NCBI RefSeq assembly: GCF_024464655.1
Contig: NZ_JANHAV010000001.1
Coordinates: 248,001 to 312,000 of the forward strand
Origin: Halobellus inordinatus
GTDB taxonomy: Archaea > Halobacteriota > Halobacteria > Halobacteriales > Haloferacaceae
Length of the DNA: 64,000 nt
Direction of reading: 5' to 3'
Below are positions 1 to 58,695 of the stretch, in pieces; positions within the stretch are counted from its first letter, which is position 1, and each line of letters begins with the position of its first letter. The notes below the pieces were generated by a model that saw only the letters and a list, made by a program, of their open reading frames with translations, did no database searches and was not told the DNA's origin. The translations under genes and the position numbers were made by a program.

Positions 1-190
1 CCCGACGCTCCCGATCTCGATCGCGCTCGCCCAGCGGCTGCCGGAGACGCCGTTCCGCTTCGCTGCGACGACACCGCTCGGTGACCGCCGCTGGCGACTC
101 CGGATCGAACCGGGAGCGGTGCCGGACGGCCTCGTCTCGATCGACGCGACCGACGACCAGCGACTGTACGACACCGACTCGGAGTACTGA
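1..190 (+). CDS. C-terminal fragment of an unknown protein
   Basis: An open frame runs in from the left edge and stops with TGA at 188-190. About 62 residues are visible, with an arginine-rich middle (RRWRLRIEP) and an acidic end (DSEY). Codon use fits a real haloarchaeal gene: the third position is almost always G or C. No domain can be recognised in this piece, and the N-terminus lies outside the window. The next gene follows on the same strand after a short gap, so the two may be co-transcribed. Confidence 0.6.
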   Translation, partial: PTLPISIALAQRLPETPFRFAATTPLGDRRWRLRIEPGAVPDGLVSIDATDDQRLYDTDSEY

Positions 191-256
191 CGGTCAACGC
201 TTTCGTCGCTCGCCCCAACCGTGAGACTCATCGACCGTGCCAACCTCTCGGCGGGT

Positions 257-1117
257 ATGTCCGAACACCCCACAGACGCCAGTACTGCGCCGAGCGACAG
301 TGATGCCGGTACTGACTCCTCCGGTGCGATCCCCGACGGCGGTGATCCGAACGCCGCAGACGTCCTCGTCGTCGGCGGAGGCGTCGCCGGGCTGACGGCC
401 GCGACGTTCACCGCTCGCGCGGGACTCGACACCCTCGTCGTCGACGCCGACGAGAGCATCCTGGCCCGGAACGCACACTTAGAGAACGTGCCTGGGTTCC
501 CGGCCGGCATCAACTCACGTCAGTTCCTCGACCTCCTGGGCGAGCAGGCCGACGCGAACGGCGTCCGGCGACAGACGGGGCGCGTCCGCGACGTCGGGCG
601 GCGCGGCGACGGTTTCGAAGTCGCAGTGGCGGCTGGCAACGACGCAACGCCCGCGGAGCGAACGATCAGCGCCGACGCCGTCGTCGCCGCGTCGTGGTCC
701 GACGTCTCGTACCTCGACAGCCTCGGCGTCGACACGCGCGATGCGGGATCGAAGACGTACGTCGAGGTGGACGACCTCGGGCGGACGAACGTCGAGGGCG
801 TCTACGCTGCGGGCCGACTGACCGAGAAGTATCACCAGGCAGTCGTCGCCGCGGGCCACGGCGCCGAGGTCGGCCTGACCGTCGTTCACGACTCCGAGAC
901 GCCGTACTACAACGACTGGGTGACGCCCGAGGGCTACTTCACCGACCGCGGCCGCGAGGTCCCGCCGGGCTGTGAGGAGATCGACGACGCCGAGCGCGAC
1001 CGCCGTGATTCGGCGTCCCGCGACCGAATGCGCGAGGCGTTCACCGAGGCGCATCCGGAACCCCAGCGGACGCATCCGAGCCTCGTCGACGACGAACTGG
1101 GACGACTCGACGAGTAG
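257..1117 (+). CDS. FAD-dependent oxidoreductase, TrxB-like FAD domain only
   Basis: About 286 residues. After an acidic, low-complexity start of about 35 residues comes a Rossmann dinucleotide-binding motif (VLVVGGGVAG, residues about 37-45) and the acidic VVDAD strand end. Near the C-terminus lies the second FAD contact seen in thioredoxin-reductase relatives (GVYAAGR followed by a helix with VVAAGHGAEVG). There is no CxxC redox pair, and the sequence between the two FAD halves is too short for a separate NADPH domain, so this is not a working TrxB. A charged tail of about 60 residues follows. ATG 257 was chosen over an in-frame GTG at 221 because the extra residues look like translated leader. 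Electron donor and substrate are unknown. Confidence 0.8.
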   Translation: MSEHPTDASTAPSDSDAGTDSSGAIPDGGDPNAADVLVVGGGVAGLTAATFTARAGLDTLVVDADESILARNAHLENVPGFPAGINSRQFLDLLGEQADANGVRRQTGRVRDVGRRGDGFEVAVAAGNDATPAERTISADAVVAASWSDVSYLDSLGVDTRDAGSKTYVEVDDLGRTNVEGVYAAGRLTEKYHQAVVAAGHGAEVGLTVVHDSETPYYNDWVTPEGYFTDRGREVPPGCEEIDDAERDRRDSASRDRMREAFTEAHPEPQRTHPSLVDDELGRLDE

Positions 1118-1190
1118 CCGTTTTGCGCCCGCTCGCGCGGAGGGAGCCAGACCGGGGAGTTTTACCCCGCCGCCGTCGAACCCCCGGGCG

Positions 1191-2375
1191 ATGTTAGACG
1201 GCGTCAACGTCGCGCTCGGCGTCTCGGGGAGCATCGCCGCCGTGAAGGTGGTCGAACTCGCCCACGAGTTGCGACGCCAGGGGGCGAACGTCCGCGGTGT
1301 GATGACCGAGAGCGCACAGGGGATCATCCACCCGTGGGCGCTCGAATTCGCGACGGGCAACGACGTGGTGACCGAACTCACCGGGCGCGTCGAACACGTC
1401 GAACTCTGCGGTCGCGACGGCTGGGCCGACGTGCTCTTGCTCGCGCCCGCGACGGCGAACACGGTCGGCAAGATCGCGAGTGCGATCGACGACACGCCGG
1501 TGACGACCTGCGCGACGACCGCGCTCGGCGCGGACCTGCCGGTCGTGATCGCGCCCGCGATGCACGAACCGATGTACGACCACCCGGGCGTGCTGGACGC
1601 CATCGACCGCGTCGAGTCCTGGGGCGTCGATTTCGTCGATCCGCGGATCGAGGAAGGGAAAGCGAAGATCGCGACCGAAGACGCCATCATCACCGCCACC
1701 GCGCGCGCGACGACCGAACGGACGCTCGCGGGTCGTCACGTGGTCGTCACCTCGGGTGCGACCGCAGAAGAGATCGACCCCGTCAGGATTCTCACGAACC
1801 GCGCGTCGGGCAAGACCGGCCGCGCCGTCGCCCGCGCCTGCTACGTCCGCGGGGCCGACGTTACGCTCGTCCACGACGCCGGCGATGTCCACTACGCGGA
1901 CACCGTGACCGTCGAATCCGCCGCCGAGATGCGGGATGCGGTCCTCGCCGCGGTCGGTGAAACCGATGCCGACGGCGACGCGCCCGCCGCGGACGTCGTC
2001 GTGTCCGCGGCCGCTATCTCCGATTACACGGTCGAAGCCGCCGCCGAGAAACTCCGTTCGGGCGATCACCGCACGCTCGAACTCGAACCGACGCCGAAAC
2101 TCCTCGATGGGGTGCGCGAGGCGTATCCGGACCTCCCGATCGTCGGCTTCAAAGCCGAAACGTCCGGCGACGACGAGAAGATGGTCGCAGCCGCTCGCAA
2201 CACCCTCGAACGGACGGACCTCGCGTTCGTCGTCGCCAACGACGCGTCCGTAATGGGCGACGACGAGACGCGGACGCTGTTCGTCGACGCCGACGAAGTC
2301 GACGAGTTCTCGGGATCGAAGACGGCGCTCGGCGGTGCGATCGCGGACCGGATCGCCGTAACGGTTCGCGACTGA
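1191..2375 (+). CDS. coaBC: Bifunctional phosphopantothenoylcysteine decarboxylase / phosphopantothenate-cysteine ligase
   Basis: 394 residues, the usual length for CoaBC (Dfp). It catalyses two steps of coenzyme A synthesis: joining cysteine to phosphopantothenate, then FMN-dependent decarboxylation. The N-terminal flavoprotein half carries GSIAA (13-17), APATANTVGKIA (85-96) and APAMHEPM (121-128). The CoaB half starts near residue 183 with TSGATAEEIDPVR (187-199) and the SGKTG nucleotide loop. Where bacterial CoaC has a reactive cysteine in its flap (ACG), this protein reads EEGKAK; from memory this is the archaeal form. ATG 1191 matches the start of the flavodoxin-like fold. A TTTTAC sequence about 30 nt upstream could be its TATA element. 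Confidence 0.95.
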   Translation: MLDGVNVALGVSGSIAAVKVVELAHELRRQGANVRGVMTESAQGIIHPWALEFATGNDVVTELTGRVEHVELCGRDGWADVLLLAPATANTVGKIASAIDDTPVTTCATTALGADLPVVIAPAMHEPMYDHPGVLDAIDRVESWGVDFVDPRIEEGKAKIATEDAIITATARATTERTLAGRHVVVTSGATAEEIDPVRILTNRASGKTGRAVARACYVRGADVTLVHDAGDVHYADTVTVESAAEMRDAVLAAVGETDADGDAPAADVVVSAAAISDYTVEAAAEKLRSGDHRTLELEPTPKLLDGVREAYPDLPIVGFKAETSGDDEKMVAAARNTLERTDLAFVVANDASVMGDDETRTLFVDADEVDEFSGSKTALGGAIADRIAVTVRD

Positions 2376-2408
2376 ACGCCTCCACGCCGCGCTCGTCGCT
2401 CTGTTCTA

Positions 2409-2678
2409 CTAGTCCCGCGCCACGTCGTTGGCGTCGGCAATCACCTTGTAGACGAGGCCGATCAGGCCACCCAGGACGGCGACGAACCCGACGAGGAAGA
2501 CGACCGCTGCGAGGAGTTGCCCCACGAACCCGGCACCGCCGCCCCGGATCGCCCAATTCGACGCGAACCACCCACCGAGGAGCAACGCGACGTAGCCGGC
2601 CAGGACCACGGCGTACAGAACGGCCATCTCCCGACCGAGCGCGTACTGTAACGCGTCTCGTGCGCTAACTGTTGACAT
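2409..2678 (-). CDS. Small two-helix membrane protein
   Basis: 89 residues with two hydrophobic segments (about 18-38 and 52-80) joined by a short glycine-rich loop (RGGGAG), and short polar ends. No domain is recognisable; proteins of this size and shape are common in haloarchaea and are mostly uncharacterised. It lies between convergently placed coaBC and the Lrp-type regulator, on the same strand as the regulator but separated by about 70 nt. The amino-acid composition and GC-rich third positions support it as a real gene rather than a shadow of another frame. Confidence 0.75.
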   Translation of the reverse strand: MSTVSARDALQYALGREMAVLYAVVLAGYVALLLGGWFASNWAIRGGGAGFVGQLLAAVVFLVGFVAVLGGLIGLVYKVIADANDVARD

Positions 2679-2750
2679 ACCATCTCTACGGTATCTTCGC
2701 GAATAACGGCTGCGTCGCTCGGGGCGACACTGCCCGGTCGGAGGACCGTC

Positions 2751-3230
2751 TCACTCCCCGCCGCTGCTGTCTGACCCGAACGGGCTGTAGGGGTTGTTGT
2801 ACTCGTTGCGGATGATCTCCTCTTCGACGATCTCGAAGCCGAGTGAGCTGAGCTCCCGACCGATCCGGCTCAGATCGTCGCTGTCACGGCCGACGGCAGT
2901 GATGTGGACGTTCTCCTCGCCGGTCATAATCTCTCTGACGGAGATCACGCCCTCGACGTCGAGCGCTTGCTCGGCCAACCGCTCGCGCTCGGGGATCGGG
3001 GCCGTACAGAAGATGATCGTGTAGAGCTGATACCCCATCCGCTCGTAGTCGACGTCGACGTGCGTCCCCCGGATGATCCCCTCCGATTCGAGCTTTCCGA
3101 TCCGGTTTCTGACCGTGCTCGCGGAGACGCCCTTCGCCTCGGCGATGTCGCTGCTGGATGTGTGTCTGGCGTCTTTCTGGAGCGCATAGACGATGTAGCG
3201 GTCGAGATCGTCAAGATCGACTGCGGCCAT
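2751..3230 (-). CDS. Lrp/AsnC family transcriptional regulator
   Basis: 159 residues. The N-terminus (LDDLDRYIVYALQKDAR) opens a winged helix-turn-helix of the AsnC type, with the recognition helix in VSASTVRNRIGKLESEG (about 35-51). The C-terminal half is an alpha/beta RAM-like ligand or oligomer domain (VISVREIMTGEENVHITAVG), ending in an acidic tail. Such proteins act in the cytoplasm on transcription in response to amino acids or other small molecules. It sits 3' of the permease/TrkA-N pair on the same strand, separated from it by a palindromic repeat, so it may or may not control that transporter. Confidence 0.9.
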   Translation of the reverse strand: MAAVDLDDLDRYIVYALQKDARHTSSSDIAEAKGVSASTVRNRIGKLESEGIIRGTHVDVDYERMGYQLYTIIFCTAPIPERERLAEQALDVEGVISVREIMTGEENVHITAVGRDSDDLSRIGRELSSLGFEIVEEEIIRNEYNNPYSPFGSDSSGGE

Positions 3231-3297
3231 ACTCTGTGTGCAAATCGAATCATAGATAGGTGTTGTGCTTGTGGCGACAGCGTCAGTGGGGGAGCTA

Positions 3298-3374
3298 TAG
3301 GGAGTATCGTAACTGTTCGGAGACTCTCGCCGTACTGTCCGGCGAGAAATCTATGGAGACGTACGATAATCCCT
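3298..3374. repeat. Palindromic element, copy 1 of 3
   Basis: A non-coding element of about 77 nt with two nested inverted repeats. The outer arms are AGGGAGTATCGTAAC and GTACGATAATCCCT; the inner arms are TCTCGCCG (3325-3332) and CGGCGAGA (3340-3347) around a 7-nt loop. It ends one base from the stop codon of the minus-strand permease. Two further copies lie at 58594-58671 and 32649-32726. Confidence 0.85.
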
Positions 3375-3375
3375 C

Positions 3376-5592
3376 TCAGAACACCCAGCGTTCGAGCATC
3401 TGAGCGATCCGCCCGCGGCGCTGTGAGTCCTCCGGGTGGACGACGAGCACGGGACGGTTCGCCGTCGCGAGATACGACGCGATCCCGTCGTTACCGCGTT
3501 CCGCGGCGCTAACGACGAGGAGGTCCGGAGCGGTCGGCTCCGACTTCGGGTGCGTCGCCGTCCCGCCGTCAGTGAACTGTGCGTGGCTCGAAACCGGGGC
3601 CGAACACAGCTCGGCTACGTCGCCGTGATAGTCTCGGAGCGTTCGCTTCGCGACGACGGACTCGTCCTCGCGATCCACGTACCTGAACGCGATCGATCCA
3701 GCGGCCGACGTGGCGATCGCGTCCGCGATGGCGACTTTCGCCGGATCGTACGGGCCTTCGTCTGAGAGTACGCCGACGACGTCCACGTCGTCGAGCCCTC
3801 CGGGCTCGGCGTGCAAGAGCGCGACGTCACAGGGTGCGTGCCGCCGAACCCAGTCGACGTCGGAGCCGAACAGCCGTCCGCGGAGCCCTGCGGGCGTCGC
3901 CGTCTCCTCGGTGAGGAGGAGATCGACCGACTCGTGGGCGGCGTAGTTGACGGCGGCGTGGCGCACGTCGTGACAGACGATCGTCCCGCTTTTCACGGGC
4001 ACGTCGAACTCGCAGTCGAGTTCGCTCGTCTGCTCGTCGAAGCGCACGTCTGCGGGGGTCTCCGTCTCGGAGGCGTACGTCAGCGGGACCTGATCCGGGA
4101 CCTGCTCGAATCGCACGACAGCGACCTCTCCATCGTGGGTTCGAGCGAGGTCGGACGCGATGCGAACGAACGACCGTTCTTCGTCCTTCGAGACGGCGTG
4201 ATCGAGAGCGACGAGCACGCGGTAGCCGCTGGCCCACTCGTCGAGCGCCTGCTGCGTCCGATCGACGGCGCTGCGGCCGACCTGCCGGCGAACGGCGTCG
4301 ACGGCAACGCCTTCGCGATCGACGCGGCGGCGGCCGTAGAGGAGGAACCAGGCGACGCCGACGGCGATCAGCGCGACTGCACCGACGAACGGGACCAGTC
4401 CCATCTGCGTCAACAACACGAGACCGCTGAGGACGCCGACGATCTGGATCCACGGATACAGCGGTGCGGTGAACGCCGGGTCGTACTCGGCGTTGCCCTC
4501 TCGGAACGCGACGAGCGCGACGTTGATCAGGACGAAGATGAGGATCTGGAAGGCGCTCGCGAGCTTTGCGATCTCTAAGAGCGGGACGAACGCGATCAGC
4601 ACCAGCAGTACGACGCCGGTGAGCGTGATCGAGTTCGAGGGCGTCCCGAAGCGCTCGCTCACGGTCGCCATCGAGTCGGGGACGAGATCGTCACGCGCCA
4701 TCGCGAAGGGGTACCGCGACGAAGAGAGGATCCCGGCGTTCGCCGTACTCACGAGCGCGAGGATCGCGGCGAGGACCACGGCGACGACTCCGGGGGTTCC
4801 CAGCGTCGCCCCGGCGGCGACGGCCATCGGGGTCGCGCTCTCGGCGATCCGCGTCGGCTCCGTGACGCCGATCATCACCGCGACGATCAGCACGTAGAGG
4901 ACCGTCGTGAACGCGAGCGACCCGAGGATCCCGAGCGGGATGTTGCGGTCGGGATCGGCGACCTCCTCGGCGACGCTCGCGACCTTCGTGACGCCTGCGT
5001 AGGATACGAACACCAGCCCGGTGGCCGCCAACAGACCGCCCGCGCCGCCGCCGAAGAACGGCGCGTAGTTTGGCTGTCGGACCGACGGGCCGCCCCCGAC
5101 GACGAACCACACGAGTGCGGCGAGCATCACGACCACGATGGCGACCTGCAGTCGGCCGGTCTGCTTCGCCCCGAGGACGTTCACCACGACGAGGAGCGCC
5201 GCCAGCGCAAGCGCGACCTGTGTCGTGGCGCCGGGCGACACGTCGAACAGCAACAGGAGGTAGGGAACGCCGCCGACGAGCGCGAGCGCACCTTTGAACG
5301 ACAGCGCGAACCACGTTCCGATGCCCGCGACAGTGCCCAAAAGTGGCCCCATCCCGCGTTCGATGAACAGGTAGGTGCCGCCCGCCTCCGGCATCGCCGT
5401 CGCCATCTCGGCTTTCGCGAGGGCGGCCGGGACCACGAGCACGCCCGCGACGAGGTACGCGAGGATGACGGCCGGGCCCGCAATCTCGACCGCGAGGGCC
5501 GGGAGGATGAAGATGCCGCTGCCGACCATCGCGCCGATGCTGATGGCGAGCACCGCCGGGAGCCCGAGGTCGCGTTCGAGCGTCTTCGGCAC
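3376..5592 (-). CDS. APC family amino acid permease with C-terminal UspA domains
   Basis: 738 residues. The first about 430 residues form a transporter of the amino acid-polyamine-organocation superfamily, recognisable by the first helix (ISIGAMVGSGIFILPALA, with the substrate-contact GSGIF turn) and about twelve hydrophobic segments. The remaining about 300 residues are cytoplasmic and contain two UspA-like repeats (first near RVLVALDHAVSKDEE, second near DVDVVGVLSDEGPYDP). The UspA part probably senses nucleotide or stress state and regulates transport; substrate cannot be told. The stop of the upstream TrkA-N gene is one base from this start, so the two genes are one transcription unit. 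Confidence 0.92.
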   Translation of the reverse strand: MPKTLERDLGLPAVLAISIGAMVGSGIFILPALAVEIAGPAVILAYLVAGVLVVPAALAKAEMATAMPEAGGTYLFIERGMGPLLGTVAGIGTWFALSFKGALALVGGVPYLLLLFDVSPGATTQVALALAALLVVVNVLGAKQTGRLQVAIVVVMLAALVWFVVGGGPSVRQPNYAPFFGGGAGGLLAATGLVFVSYAGVTKVASVAEEVADPDRNIPLGILGSLAFTTVLYVLIVAVMIGVTEPTRIAESATPMAVAAGATLGTPGVVAVVLAAILALVSTANAGILSSSRYPFAMARDDLVPDSMATVSERFGTPSNSITLTGVVLLVLIAFVPLLEIAKLASAFQILIFVLINVALVAFREGNAEYDPAFTAPLYPWIQIVGVLSGLVLLTQMGLVPFVGAVALIAVGVAWFLLYGRRRVDREGVAVDAVRRQVGRSAVDRTQQALDEWASGYRVLVALDHAVSKDEERSFVRIASDLARTHDGEVAVVRFEQVPDQVPLTYASETETPADVRFDEQTSELDCEFDVPVKSGTIVCHDVRHAAVNYAAHESVDLLLTEETATPAGLRGRLFGSDVDWVRRHAPCDVALLHAEPGGLDDVDVVGVLSDEGPYDPAKVAIADAIATSAAGSIAFRYVDREDESVVAKRTLRDYHGDVAELCSAPVSSHAQFTDGGTATHPKSEPTAPDLLVVSAAERGNDGIASYLATANRPVLVVHPEDSQRRGRIAQMLERWVF

Positions 5593-30038: not shown

Positions 30039-32399
30039 CTACCGGAACAGCTTCTGCAGGTAGCGATAGACGGGGAAGACGTATTCGGAGAGGCGGCCGA
30101 CGACGCCGGTCGAACTGGCGTAGACGACTACCGGGAGGTCGGTTTCGGGGGCGCGCTCGATGACGCGGTCCGGGGTGCTCCCGAAGACCCACCGACGGAG
30201 CTCGCGCGTGCGAGTCGCGCCGATGAACAGGACGCCGCCGCTCGCCGCCGCCGACTCGACGAGGCCGTCGGCGATGAGATCAGCTTCGATCTCGTGAACC
30301 TCGACGTCGATCCCTTCCGAGAGGTGATCGAGTGTGTCCTCGATCGCTTCGTGTGTCCCGTGTTCGCCCGTCGGTGCGACGCGAATGACGTGGACCGCCG
30401 CGCCCTGCGTTCCGAGGTCGTCGATCAGGGGGAGGAGGGCGTGGTGGTGCGGTCCGCCGCCGGCACCGACGTTGACCACGTCCAGGCTCGGGTGCTCGGG
30501 GAGTTTGTGGACGTAGAGAATGTCACACGGCGATTTGAACTGCACCGACGACGCGATGTCCGGGTGGTCCTCGGGGTACCCCATCAGGATCAGGTCCGCG
30601 CCGTCGTCCCGAGCAGTCTGGAGGATGTCGAAGGCGACCTCCCGGCAGATGTGTCCCTCGACGGTGTAGTCGACCCCGGTCTCGACGCCTTCGAGCTGGG
30701 CTTCGAGCGCGTCGGCGCGGTCGCCGGCGGTGTCTTCGAGCGCCTCGAAGGGGGTCTGTTCGGGTAGCTGGGTGATCGTCACGACCTGGACGAGCGGATC
30801 GCCGTTGCCCGTCCGCGCTTCGGCTATTTGGCTCGCAAAGCGCACGTAGGCGGGTGCGCGACTCGGCCGAGCGACCGGGACTAGGATACGGAACCGTTCT
30901 TCGGTCTCCGCTTCGGCCTCCTCTCCGCCGGCCGCTGCGGCCGACTCACCCGCTACGGTCGGCGGGCGTTCGCCCGCACGGGCGGCGTGCCCGCCCGGTT
31001 CGACGGATGCAGCGTGCGGGCGGGCTTCAGTCACGCGCGCGAAGAGTTCCTCGCGTTCGGGCGCGCCGCCCCAGAAGTAGTACGACGCTACGAGCGCGAT
31101 CACGACGACGATGCCGCTGAGGATCCCCGAGAAGGGCAGATTTCCGATAAGTGCGACGTTGGCCAGGACGCCCAGGACGGGAACGAACGGCACGAGAGGG
31201 ACGCTGAAGGGACGGTCGAGGTCCGGATAGCGGCGCCGCGAGTAGACGAGCGCGACGTTCACGACCGAGAGTGGAACGAGCAGATTGAACGTCGCAAAGC
31301 CGGTGAGCGCCGAGAGATGGAAGTGGAGTCCGCGGCCGACGACCTCGACCGACGGCAGGATGCCGCTGAAGGCCAGAATGAACGCGACGATCGTTCCCGT
31401 CGCCGTCGCGACGCTCCAGAACGGCGTCCCGTACTCGGGATGGATGCGCTGGAACGGCCGCGGGGCCTGTCCGCGCTCGCCCATCAGCGACCCGATCCCC
31501 GAGGCGGCCAGTATCGAGGCGTTCGACGCCGACACCATCGAGAAGATCGCGCCCGCGACGATGAGTACCCGACCGATCGGACCGAGGAACGCGGCCGCGA
31601 CCCGGCCCATCGCGGTCTCTCCGAGTTCGGCGACCACTTCTGCGGGGATCGGCGAGTTCACCATCGCGACGATGACGAAGGTGTAGAGCACGACGACGGT
31701 CAGGATCGACGTCGCGATAGCCTTGGGGACCGTCTTCCGTGGTTCGATGATCTCGCCCGCACTCGCAGCGATGGCTGAGAATCCGAAGAACGTAATGAAC
31801 GCCAGGGCCGCCACGGAGACGATGCCGACGGGTTCGGCCTGGAAGTTCCCGGCGAACCGCCCAGTAGCTTCGACTGGCCCGGCGAAAGCGAACGCGCCGC
31901 CGATGAACGCGAAGAGCACGGCGACTTTCGCGGAGGTGACGATGACCTGGAACGTCCCGCTCTCCTCAGTCCCGCGGGCGTTGAGGGCGCCAAGGAGAAT
32001 CGTCGTGACGAGCGGCATCGTCCCGTGCGGAATCGGCCAGACTTCGGGGAAGACGAACCGCTGCCACCACTCGCCCATCGTCGCGAGGTAGAACGCGGTC
32101 GTCCCCGTGTAGCCGAGAAACCGCGAGACGCCGACGAAGTACGTGAGGAAGTCGCTGTCGAACGTCTGTGAACTGAACAGGTAGCCGCCGCCGTTCTCGG
32201 AGTAGATCGAGGCGAACTCGGAGTACGAAGCCGCGGTGATCCCGGCGACGACTGCGGCGATAATGAACGCGATGACCGCGCTACTGCCGATTCGGGCGAC
32301 GGCGACGCCGGACAGCGAGAAGATCCCCGCCGCGATCATCGTCCCGAGGCCCATCGCGTACGCGACGGTGAAGCCGAGTGACCGAGTGTGCTCTACCAT
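30039..32399 (-). CDS. APC family permease with C-terminal UspA domains, second copy
   Basis: 786 residues from ATG 32399. The transporter half opens with AYAMGLGTMIAAGIFSLSG, the APC first-helix motif, and about twelve hydrophobic segments. The second half (from about residue 510) is soluble and holds two UspA-like repeats (RILVPVARPSRAPAYVRFA, then VVNVGAGGGPHHHALLPLI, with GATRTRELRRWVFGSTPDRV near the end, the UspA nucleotide loop). It is a distant paralogue of the permease at 3376, in the same domain order. An in-frame start 29 codons upstream adds a basic leader and was rejected. Substrate unknown. Confidence 0.92.
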   Translation of the reverse strand: MVEHTRSLGFTVAYAMGLGTMIAAGIFSLSGVAVARIGSSAVIAFIIAAVVAGITAASYSEFASIYSENGGGYLFSSQTFDSDFLTYFVGVSRFLGYTGTTAFYLATMGEWWQRFVFPEVWPIPHGTMPLVTTILLGALNARGTEESGTFQVIVTSAKVAVLFAFIGGAFAFAGPVEATGRFAGNFQAEPVGIVSVAALAFITFFGFSAIAASAGEIIEPRKTVPKAIATSILTVVVLYTFVIVAMVNSPIPAEVVAELGETAMGRVAAAFLGPIGRVLIVAGAIFSMVSASNASILAASGIGSLMGERGQAPRPFQRIHPEYGTPFWSVATATGTIVAFILAFSGILPSVEVVGRGLHFHLSALTGFATFNLLVPLSVVNVALVYSRRRYPDLDRPFSVPLVPFVPVLGVLANVALIGNLPFSGILSGIVVVIALVASYYFWGGAPEREELFARVTEARPHAASVEPGGHAARAGERPPTVAGESAAAAGGEEAEAETEERFRILVPVARPSRAPAYVRFASQIAEARTGNGDPLVQVVTITQLPEQTPFEALEDTAGDRADALEAQLEGVETGVDYTVEGHICREVAFDILQTARDDGADLILMGYPEDHPDIASSVQFKSPCDILYVHKLPEHPSLDVVNVGAGGGPHHHALLPLIDDLGTQGAAVHVIRVAPTGEHGTHEAIEDTLDHLSEGIDVEVHEIEADLIADGLVESAAASGGVLFIGATRTRELRRWVFGSTPDRVIERAPETDLPVVVYASSTGVVGRLSEYVFPVYRYLQKLFR

Positions 32400-33163
32400 C
32401 CTCTGCTCCCGGAGTGCTCGTCGTTTACCGACTCCTGCGTGTGCAGATTTGCCATCCCCTCTCTGTTTTGTCCAAGTTAGTCGCAATCGACGGTTGTGCG
32501 CTCCGTCGAGAGCGCTGCGTACGTCACGGCTGCAGTACGGCGGAGCTCGGACGGTGCAACTCCCGGAATCTGCGCCCGCTCACACAGCCGTAACCGCTCG
32601 TGGGATCCGTCGTTCCGACCGTTGTGAGCGGACGGCGGGCACGTTCTATCGGGGTTTCCGTAACCGTTGATAGACTCTCGTCGGAGGACACGCCGAGAGA
32701 TCTGCGAGGACTTACGAGAACTCCGACAACGTCCGCCGCGCCACTCGCCTCGTACGGATCCATACCGAACGATTGCGGCCGCATCACGTATTAAAGTCAC
32801 CAAAAATCACCGTTTTCGTAAAATATCGGCCCCAGACCAAAACATTTTGTCACTTTCCGAGGCGAACCCAGAGTCAGTTATCGAGCCGACAGACGAGTAT
32901 AAACACAGTCTACGAAACCGACGAAGTCGACGCGGCGACGACCTGCCGACACAGGACTGGTCGCCGAGGGGAGCAGCCGCGCCTTCGGTCACCCCAACAC
33001 CCGTTTGAGCTAAACCGAGTTTTATCTGCGATCGTCGTCGATACAGACGTATCAGAGATGGTCCCCACACCCGACGTACACCCGATCAGAAGGCGTCCCT
33101 CCACTCTCGTTCGCTGGCAGGAGAGACACTTACGAATCCGTCGCAGTGACAGGGGTGTCTCCG
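32400..33163. other. Gene-free 764-nt region
   Basis: No credible gene on either strand. It holds the promoter side of the permease (left end), a degenerate copy of the palindromic element (32649-32726), and an AT-rich tract at 32785-32870 (ACGTATTAAAGTCACC and AAAACATTTTGTCAC). The short open frames present are basic and Ser/Arg-rich, unlike real genes in this window. The pattern would fit decayed sequence or an unrecognised RNA. Confidence 0.6.
32649..32726. repeat. Palindromic element, copy 3 of 3 (degenerate)
   Basis: About 78 nt. Outer arms CGGGGTTTCCGTAA and TTACGAGAACTCCG are complementary with a few mismatches; the inner arms CTCTCGTCG and CGCCGAGAG pair with one mismatch. The GAGGACTTACGA block is identical to copy 2. 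It lies in gene-free DNA rather than after a stop codon. Confidence 0.65.
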
Positions 33164-57550: not shown

Positions 57551-57676
57551 CTATATGTACATTTCGAATTTTAGGGTCTGAATGCCGATAAGGGGATTCT
57601 AAGCGTGATTGTGTGTTTCTCGCTACGGAGTGCCAGCAAGCGAGCGACGGTTTGTGACACTATATGTATGTTTCAC
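57551..57676 (-). promoter_or_regulatory. Thermosome promoter and a second matching element
   Basis: On the minus strand TCGAAATGTACATATAG (57551-57567) fits a BRE plus TATA element of the kind reported for haloarchaeal heat-shock promoters (CGAAA followed by TATA). A second element, GTGAAACATACATATAG (57660-57676), is about 110 nt further upstream with the same layout. Both could start transcripts for the thermosome gene. Confidence 0.5.
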
Positions 57677-57762
57677 GGGGTGCCAGGGCACGACGGGAGC
57701 CGCCCGCACGCAGCGGACGCATTCGCCAAGGTATATTTGCGTCGCCGCGACAGTGTCCGACG

Positions 57763-58593
57763 ATGCTCGAGTTGAACCACGGGTTTCGGGTCGTCGACCT
57801 CCACGCGCGGTTGGATCCGACCGACGAGGCGGAGGTCGCGAGCCGCGGCCGCGAGACGACGCCCGAATCGCTCGAACGCGAACTCCACCAGGCGGGCGTC
57901 GTCAAGGCGGTCGTTTCGCCGGGGAGCCGCCCCGCCGACGAAGGATACCTCCGGGCGAACAACGCGGTCGCGCGGCTGAGCGTCGAGCGACCGTTCCTGG
58001 CGTTCGCCCGCATCGACGGCCCGCGCGACCCGAGTTCCCGTGCGTCGGCTCGGCTCCGTAACCTCACCGCCTCGCGGGCGTCACACCACGCCAGTCCCGA
58101 AGACATCGAGCAGTACGCCTACGACGATCGGTTTCACGGCTTCACGCTCGCCCCCGACCGAGACGGGCTCCCCGACGAGGCGACGCTGGATCAACTGGAG
58201 GACGTCGGACTCCCGGTCGTCGTCGACGGCGGCCGCGAGTTTCCGCCCGCGGCAGTCGCCGAGACGCTCTCGGATCGCGAGTTTCCGGTCGTTCTCGCCG
58301 GCTTCGGCGGCTATCCGCTCGACCGCGAACTGATGCTCGAGGCCATCGAACTCCTCGATCAGTACGATCAGCTCTATCTGGACACGAAACACGTCCACTT
58401 CCGGAGCGTCCTCGAACGCGCGCTGCTGGAACATCCCGACCGCGTGCTGTTCGGGAGCGGGGCACCCGAGACGCACCCGAACGTCGGCGTGATGGAGATT
58501 CTGACGCTCGACGTCTCCGAGGACGCGATGCGCCGCGCGTTCTCGACGAACCCCTCACGGGTCGTCCCCGCACTCGCCCCCGGCGAAGACTGA
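57763..58593 (+). CDS. Amidohydrolase / TatD-like metal-dependent hydrolase
   Basis: 276 residues. VVDLHARLDP near the N-terminus resembles the HxH of amidohydrolases but has a DLHA in place of the usual DxHxH. Near the end FGSGAPETHPNVG carries the Asp-Gly-type site where the last metal Asp is normally seen. A TIM-barrel order is plausible (LDQLEDVGLPVVVDGG, FPVVLAGFGGYP). Substrate unknown. TATA-like GTATATTT at 57731-57738 is about 28 nt before ATG 57763, and supports this start. The palindromic element follows the stop directly. Confidence 0.82.
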   Translation: MLELNHGFRVVDLHARLDPTDEAEVASRGRETTPESLERELHQAGVVKAVVSPGSRPADEGYLRANNAVARLSVERPFLAFARIDGPRDPSSRASARLRNLTASRASHHASPEDIEQYAYDDRFHGFTLAPDRDGLPDEATLDQLEDVGLPVVVDGGREFPPAAVAETLSDREFPVVLAGFGGYPLDRELMLEAIELLDQYDQLYLDTKHVHFRSVLERALLEHPDRVLFGSGAPETHPNVGVMEILTLDVSEDAMRRAFSTNPSRVVPALAPGED

Positions 58594-58671
58594 TAGGGAT
58601 TCTCGTCACTGTTCGGAGATTCTCGCCGTAACGTCTGGCGAGAAATCTATGAGGACTTACGATAACCCCTA
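58594..58671. repeat. Palindromic element, copy 2 of 3
   Basis: About 78 nt with outer arms AGGGATTCTCGTCA and TTACGATAACCCCT and inner arms TCTCGCCG (58621-58628) and TGGCGAGA (58636-58643). It matches copy 1 (3298-3374) at about 65 of 77 positions by eye. It starts directly after the amidohydrolase stop and lies between converging genes. Confidence 0.85.
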
Positions 58672-58695
58672 TGACTTCCCGGTTCAGGCCCGCGG

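Follow-up and report, generated by a model that had tools for sequence, protein, structure and literature searches.

A 78-bp palindromic MITE family in Halobellus with a target duplication that doubles as a stop codon

A 78-bp palindrome present in three copies in a 64,000-nucleotide stretch of the Halobellus inordinatus genome (the window) was identified as a member of a new MITE family, which is notable for a target duplication that serves at the same time as a stop codon. With a probability of about 0.9, we consider the element to be a palindromic non-coding DNA transposon which is mobilised in trans, inserts at CTNAG, duplicates TNA and survives at stop sites. The features in the window are listed in Table 1.

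Table 1 Copies of the 78-bp element in the window and the adjoining genes
Feature	Position	Strand	Remarks
MITE copy 1, 78 bp	3298..3375	+	91.8 bits with model R1
Target duplication TCA, read on the minus strand as the TGA stop of the amino-acid permease	3376..3378	-	Pfam AA_permease
Second target-duplication copy beside copy 1, now CTA	3295-3297		
Amino-acid permease with Usp domain, gene end at copy 1	3376..5592	-	Pfam AA_permease
MITE copy 3, old and diverged, flanked by two divergent genes, without remaining duplication	32649..32726	+	68.6 bits
Amidohydro_2 gene, end at copy 2, start codon uncertain	57664..58593	+	
Target duplication TGA, forming the Amidohydro_2 stop codon	58591..58593	+	orthologue without element: AACTGACT
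MITE copy 2, 78 bp	58594..58671	+	92.1 bits
Target duplication TGA, second copy, right of copy 2	58672..58674	+	

The first-pass annotation had located three copies of a 77-nt element. All three were recovered at the same places with a unit of 78 nt, which moves the end of copy 1 to 3375. Copies 1 and 2 are identical at 66/78 positions (about 65 of 77 had been estimated by eye), and copy 3 shares 50/78 and 53/78 positions with copies 1 and 2, respectively. The reported adjacency to stop codons holds for copies 1 and 2, which both directly adjoin a stop codon, but not for copy 3. Like the permease beside copy 1, a second amino-acid permease in the window (30039-32486) carries a fused universal stress protein domain.

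When a covariance model built from 32 copies was applied to the host genome (Halobellus, Haloferacaceae; 3.41 Mb in 23 contigs), 96 distinct copies were found, well beyond the three known at the outset, and 94 of these are uninterrupted. The assignment to Halobellus follows from a congeneric relative (G015) that matches a contig of Halobellus sp. Atlit-31R at 3078 of 3078 bases. Copy 1 used as the sole query retrieved at least 40 genomic places, with E-values of 1e-22 to 1e-33 for dozens of copies. As copy 1 alone retrieves dozens of copies and the model retrieves 96, the repeat is not a product of chance. A 13-letter pattern of the element end gave 104 matches (53 + 51) versus 2 for the reversed control. 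Matches were present in 10 of the 40 genomes searched, the host included, with 1 to about 30 matches in each of the other genomes, and the same ends occur in scattered genomes elsewhere in the order, in different genera and families. In relatives (other species and another genus), the copies have these duplications too, and the majority of those examined are located at stop codons. This patchy distribution among relatives fits a mobile element.

The exact unit (TAGGGATTATCGTAACTGTTCGGAGATTCTCGCCGTACCGTCCGGCGAGAAATCTATGGAGACTTACGATAATCCCTA) is a near-complete palindrome with a 7-base loop in the middle. Its termini are inverted (TAGGG…CCCTA; end sequence TAGGGNTTATCGTAACTGT), and TAG is the first codon of the element on both strands. 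In 15 diverse members, 92% of the cells of the 13-bp outer stem are paired, and terminal inverted repeats are thus present. The element is short and multicopy (78 bp, 96 copies) and contains no transposase gene.

Identical 3-mers were observed on both flanks of 78 of the 94 uninterrupted copies (shuffled mean 23.8, maximum 35), while no signal was found in the same flanks for duplications of 1, 2, 4, 5, 6 or 7 bases. The flank consensus is C[TNA], element, [TNA]G, with all four bases occurring at N; the off-consensus sites TCT/TCT, AGA/AGA and TAC/TAC are likewise duplicated. The identical 3-mers and the consensus indicate that insertion into a CTNAG site duplicates 3 bp of the target, and hence that the element is a MITE. 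A duplication of 3 bp is what a DDE transposase leaves when it cuts with a 3-base stagger.

Filled and empty sites were also compared. The filled site at a gene end in the host (C16:2838) reads GATCTCTGA, 78 bp, TGAGAAGG, i.e. CTGA and TGAG on either side of the element, and the orthologous site in Halobellus sp. Atlit-31R is an uninterrupted CTGAG (GATCTCTGAGAAGG) with 90% identity across the junction. In the case of copy 2, the Atlit-31R orthologue of the amidohydrolase (L224) has no element (see Table 1). Nested insertions were found in repeat B, a second palindromic family of about 80 bp that carries AACTGATTACACA. Five copies of repeat B are interrupted by the element at one same CTGAT (AACTGA, 78 bp, TGATT), and uninterrupted copies exist in the same genome, e.g. 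at C11:176508. Together with the copy number, the 3-bp duplications and the filled and empty sites, these insertions strongly support the mobile, MITE-like character proposed in the first-pass annotation.

Repeat B is itself MITE-like (TAGTAGCGTTTGCAACTGATTACACA...GACTTGCAAACGCTACTA), with an apparent TA duplication. It was seen at C11:176508, C21:151455, C11:320775, C19:54768 and other places, and also at L291 and L097 (genome G006). Repeat B is in turn inserted into the 78-bp element at C11:320717, at C19:54824 and in G006.

A preference for positions 3' of genes had been suggested, and it was borne out in a sharper form, as the duplication itself is a stop codon in nearly half of the copies. 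Genes were predicted with a codon model that had been trained on the window. Among the 94 copies, the flanking TNA is the stop codon (TGA or TAA) of the neighbouring gene in 45, whereas 49 are intergenic and none lies inside a gene. Free CTNAG sites drawn from the same DNA (about 10% of the genome) were divided into 23 stop, 94 intergenic and 217 coding sites. Stop sites are thus over-represented among the copies even when compared with intergenic CTNAG sites (odds ratio 3.75; P 1.6e-5), and coding sites are wholly avoided (P 2e-35). The stop excess persists for strict CTNAG copies (23:17) and under a tighter site definition. When the flanks of the 49 intergenic copies were rejoined, no coding frame across the junction was found. 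The pattern of stop, intergenic and coding sites agrees with insertion at specific sites and subsequent purifying selection.

The stop excess was then divided by age using the model score. Stop and intergenic copies number 29:18 in the older half and 16:31 in the younger half, where the excess is weak when taken alone (P 0.07). Since the excess grows with age, we prefer survival over active targeting as the step that produces it. Active targeting, in which the transposase or a partner would recognise gene 3' ends or termination regions beyond CTNAG itself, could account for stop sites being 3.8-fold over-represented even against intergenic CTNAG sites. We consider it unlikely, because the age trend is the one that survival predicts and because many insertions lie in CTNAG sites away from gene ends, including the CTGAT within repeat B.

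According to the MITE model, a DDE transposase would move the non-coding element in trans. Insertion at the 5-bp palindrome CTNAG with a 3-base staggered cut duplicates TNA, as the flanks, the filled and empty pairs and the nested insertions show. Whatever the base at N, TNA reads TGA or TAA on one strand, and a gene ending in C-TGA-G is therefore a legal target whose stop codon is restored by the duplication. Genes ending in C-TGA-G or C-TAA-G can accept the element within their own stop codon; the stop codon is duplicated and, with the element opening with TAG, the protein is left unaltered. Insertions in coding DNA would be lost and those at stop codons would persist longest, as suggested by the absence of copies inside genes (0/94) and by the age trend.

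The palindrome extends over the full length of the element, beyond what the ends for a transposase need, and this counts against the MITE model. The three window copies fold into hairpins better than their shuffled versions (z about -3.1 to -4.1), except for the minus strand of copy 3 (z only -1.8). Covarying pairs among homologues, another expectation of the first-pass annotation, are present between subfamilies: compensatory changes were counted in 25 cells versus 7 in shuffled data, and 15 covarying pairs have changes on both sides (shuffled 5.5). Such covariation is as compatible with a DNA element made of inverted repeats as with an RNA. In another genus (L165 and L289), a different stem occupies the place of the inner stem. 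The covarying pairing and this replacement of one stem by another indicate that those elements which multiply retain their palindrome. In L165, L289 (genus g40 relatives), L179 and L272, the outer ends are shared and the inner stem is unrelated or the length is about 100 bp; the middle of the element seems to be exchangeable, with the hairpin mostly kept.

It had also been proposed that the repeat acts as a 3' hairpin or a structured RNA, in which case copies would be retained because transcripts are terminated or stabilised by an RNA hairpin that follows the stop codon. The start of 45 of the 94 copies at a stop codon, the higher share of these in the older half, the strong folding and the compensatory changes agree with such a role. 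However, the orientation of the element relative to the gene is random (24:21), and pairing is no better at stop codons, where 59 of 102 changed pairs are broken compared with 47 of 95 in intergenic copies. An intrinsic-terminator scan of copies 1 and 2 detected neither a T tract nor a terminator-like site, and an Rfam search of the window returned only a tRNA, with no match for the element. The patchy presence among relatives is a further point against this role, and we concluded that a selected 3' hairpin is quite improbable.

The REP-like alternative, in which a RAYT (Y1 tyrosine transposase) would spread the element, matches in that REP/BIME repeats are likewise short, abundant, extragenic palindromes, but REPs are RAYT-linked and Y1 single-strand transposition makes no target duplication, so that the 3-bp duplication in 78/94 copies leaves it almost no probability.

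For the MITE reading, the TNA duplication points to a transposase that probably belongs to the IS5 family and is IS1031-like; no such gene was found in the searches for a parent transposon, which counts against the model. Shared ends with an autonomous transposon are often lost in MITEs and do not strictly define them, and in a host genome split into 23 contigs a parent may have been missed. The ends of PF01609 loci in the host and six related genomes differ from those of the element. PF13340 was not found in the 23 contigs of the host genome, and none of the six genomes searched for PF13586 contained it. Matching ends were sought at every transposase locus retrieved and none like TAGGG… was present. 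Isolated terminal matches (L155, L156, L158, L280 and L286) and scans of named genomes and viruses with the terminal 20-mer did not reveal a parent transposon; a viral match and matches in other phyla seem to be 20-mers shared by chance. L155 and L156 (genomes G112 and G059) each consist of a lone TGATAGGGATTATCGTGA in conserved flanks, with no partner end, and represent a relic or chance.

When compared with known systems, the element resembles the haloarchaeal MITEs of Haloquadratum walsbyi, which are reported to move although the genome has no functional transposase (PMC3119063). Both are non-coding, have inverted terminal repeats and target duplications, are mobile without a visible functional transposase and are nested in other elements. 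The Haloquadratum MITEs reportedly share ends with known transposons, whereas none were found for the 78-bp element, and duplication of a stop codon was not found described for them (PMC3119063). The SMR elements of Haloquadratum (80-110 bp) are similar in their prominent inverted repeats, in the lack of known transposon ends and in their insertion into other elements, but they have no target duplication, unlike the 3 bp seen here (PMC3119063). Within the IS5 family, elements of the IS1031 group prefer TNA and yield a 3-bp repeat (PMC12016507). Target and duplication length are thus exactly those of the present element; the group, however, comprises autonomous IS with their own ends (one member is 857 bp), and no related transposase was detected here. 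In a limited literature search without subscription journals, no precedent was found for insertion at CTNAG or in stop codons.

A further extension of the model is that the TNA rule amounts to a stop-codon rule and the TAG ends provide a tandem stop, that this is an evolved safe-site strategy across haloarchaeal families, and that the full palindrome is selected in transposition. We regard this extension as speculative and rather doubtful.

The family illustrates by what simple means a transposon can persist among densely packed genes: the duplication is the stop codon and the protein remains intact. With roughly 96 copies of graded divergence and empty sites in a sister species, the question of targeting or survival is directly testable, and the family matters for the annotation of haloarchaeal 3' ends.
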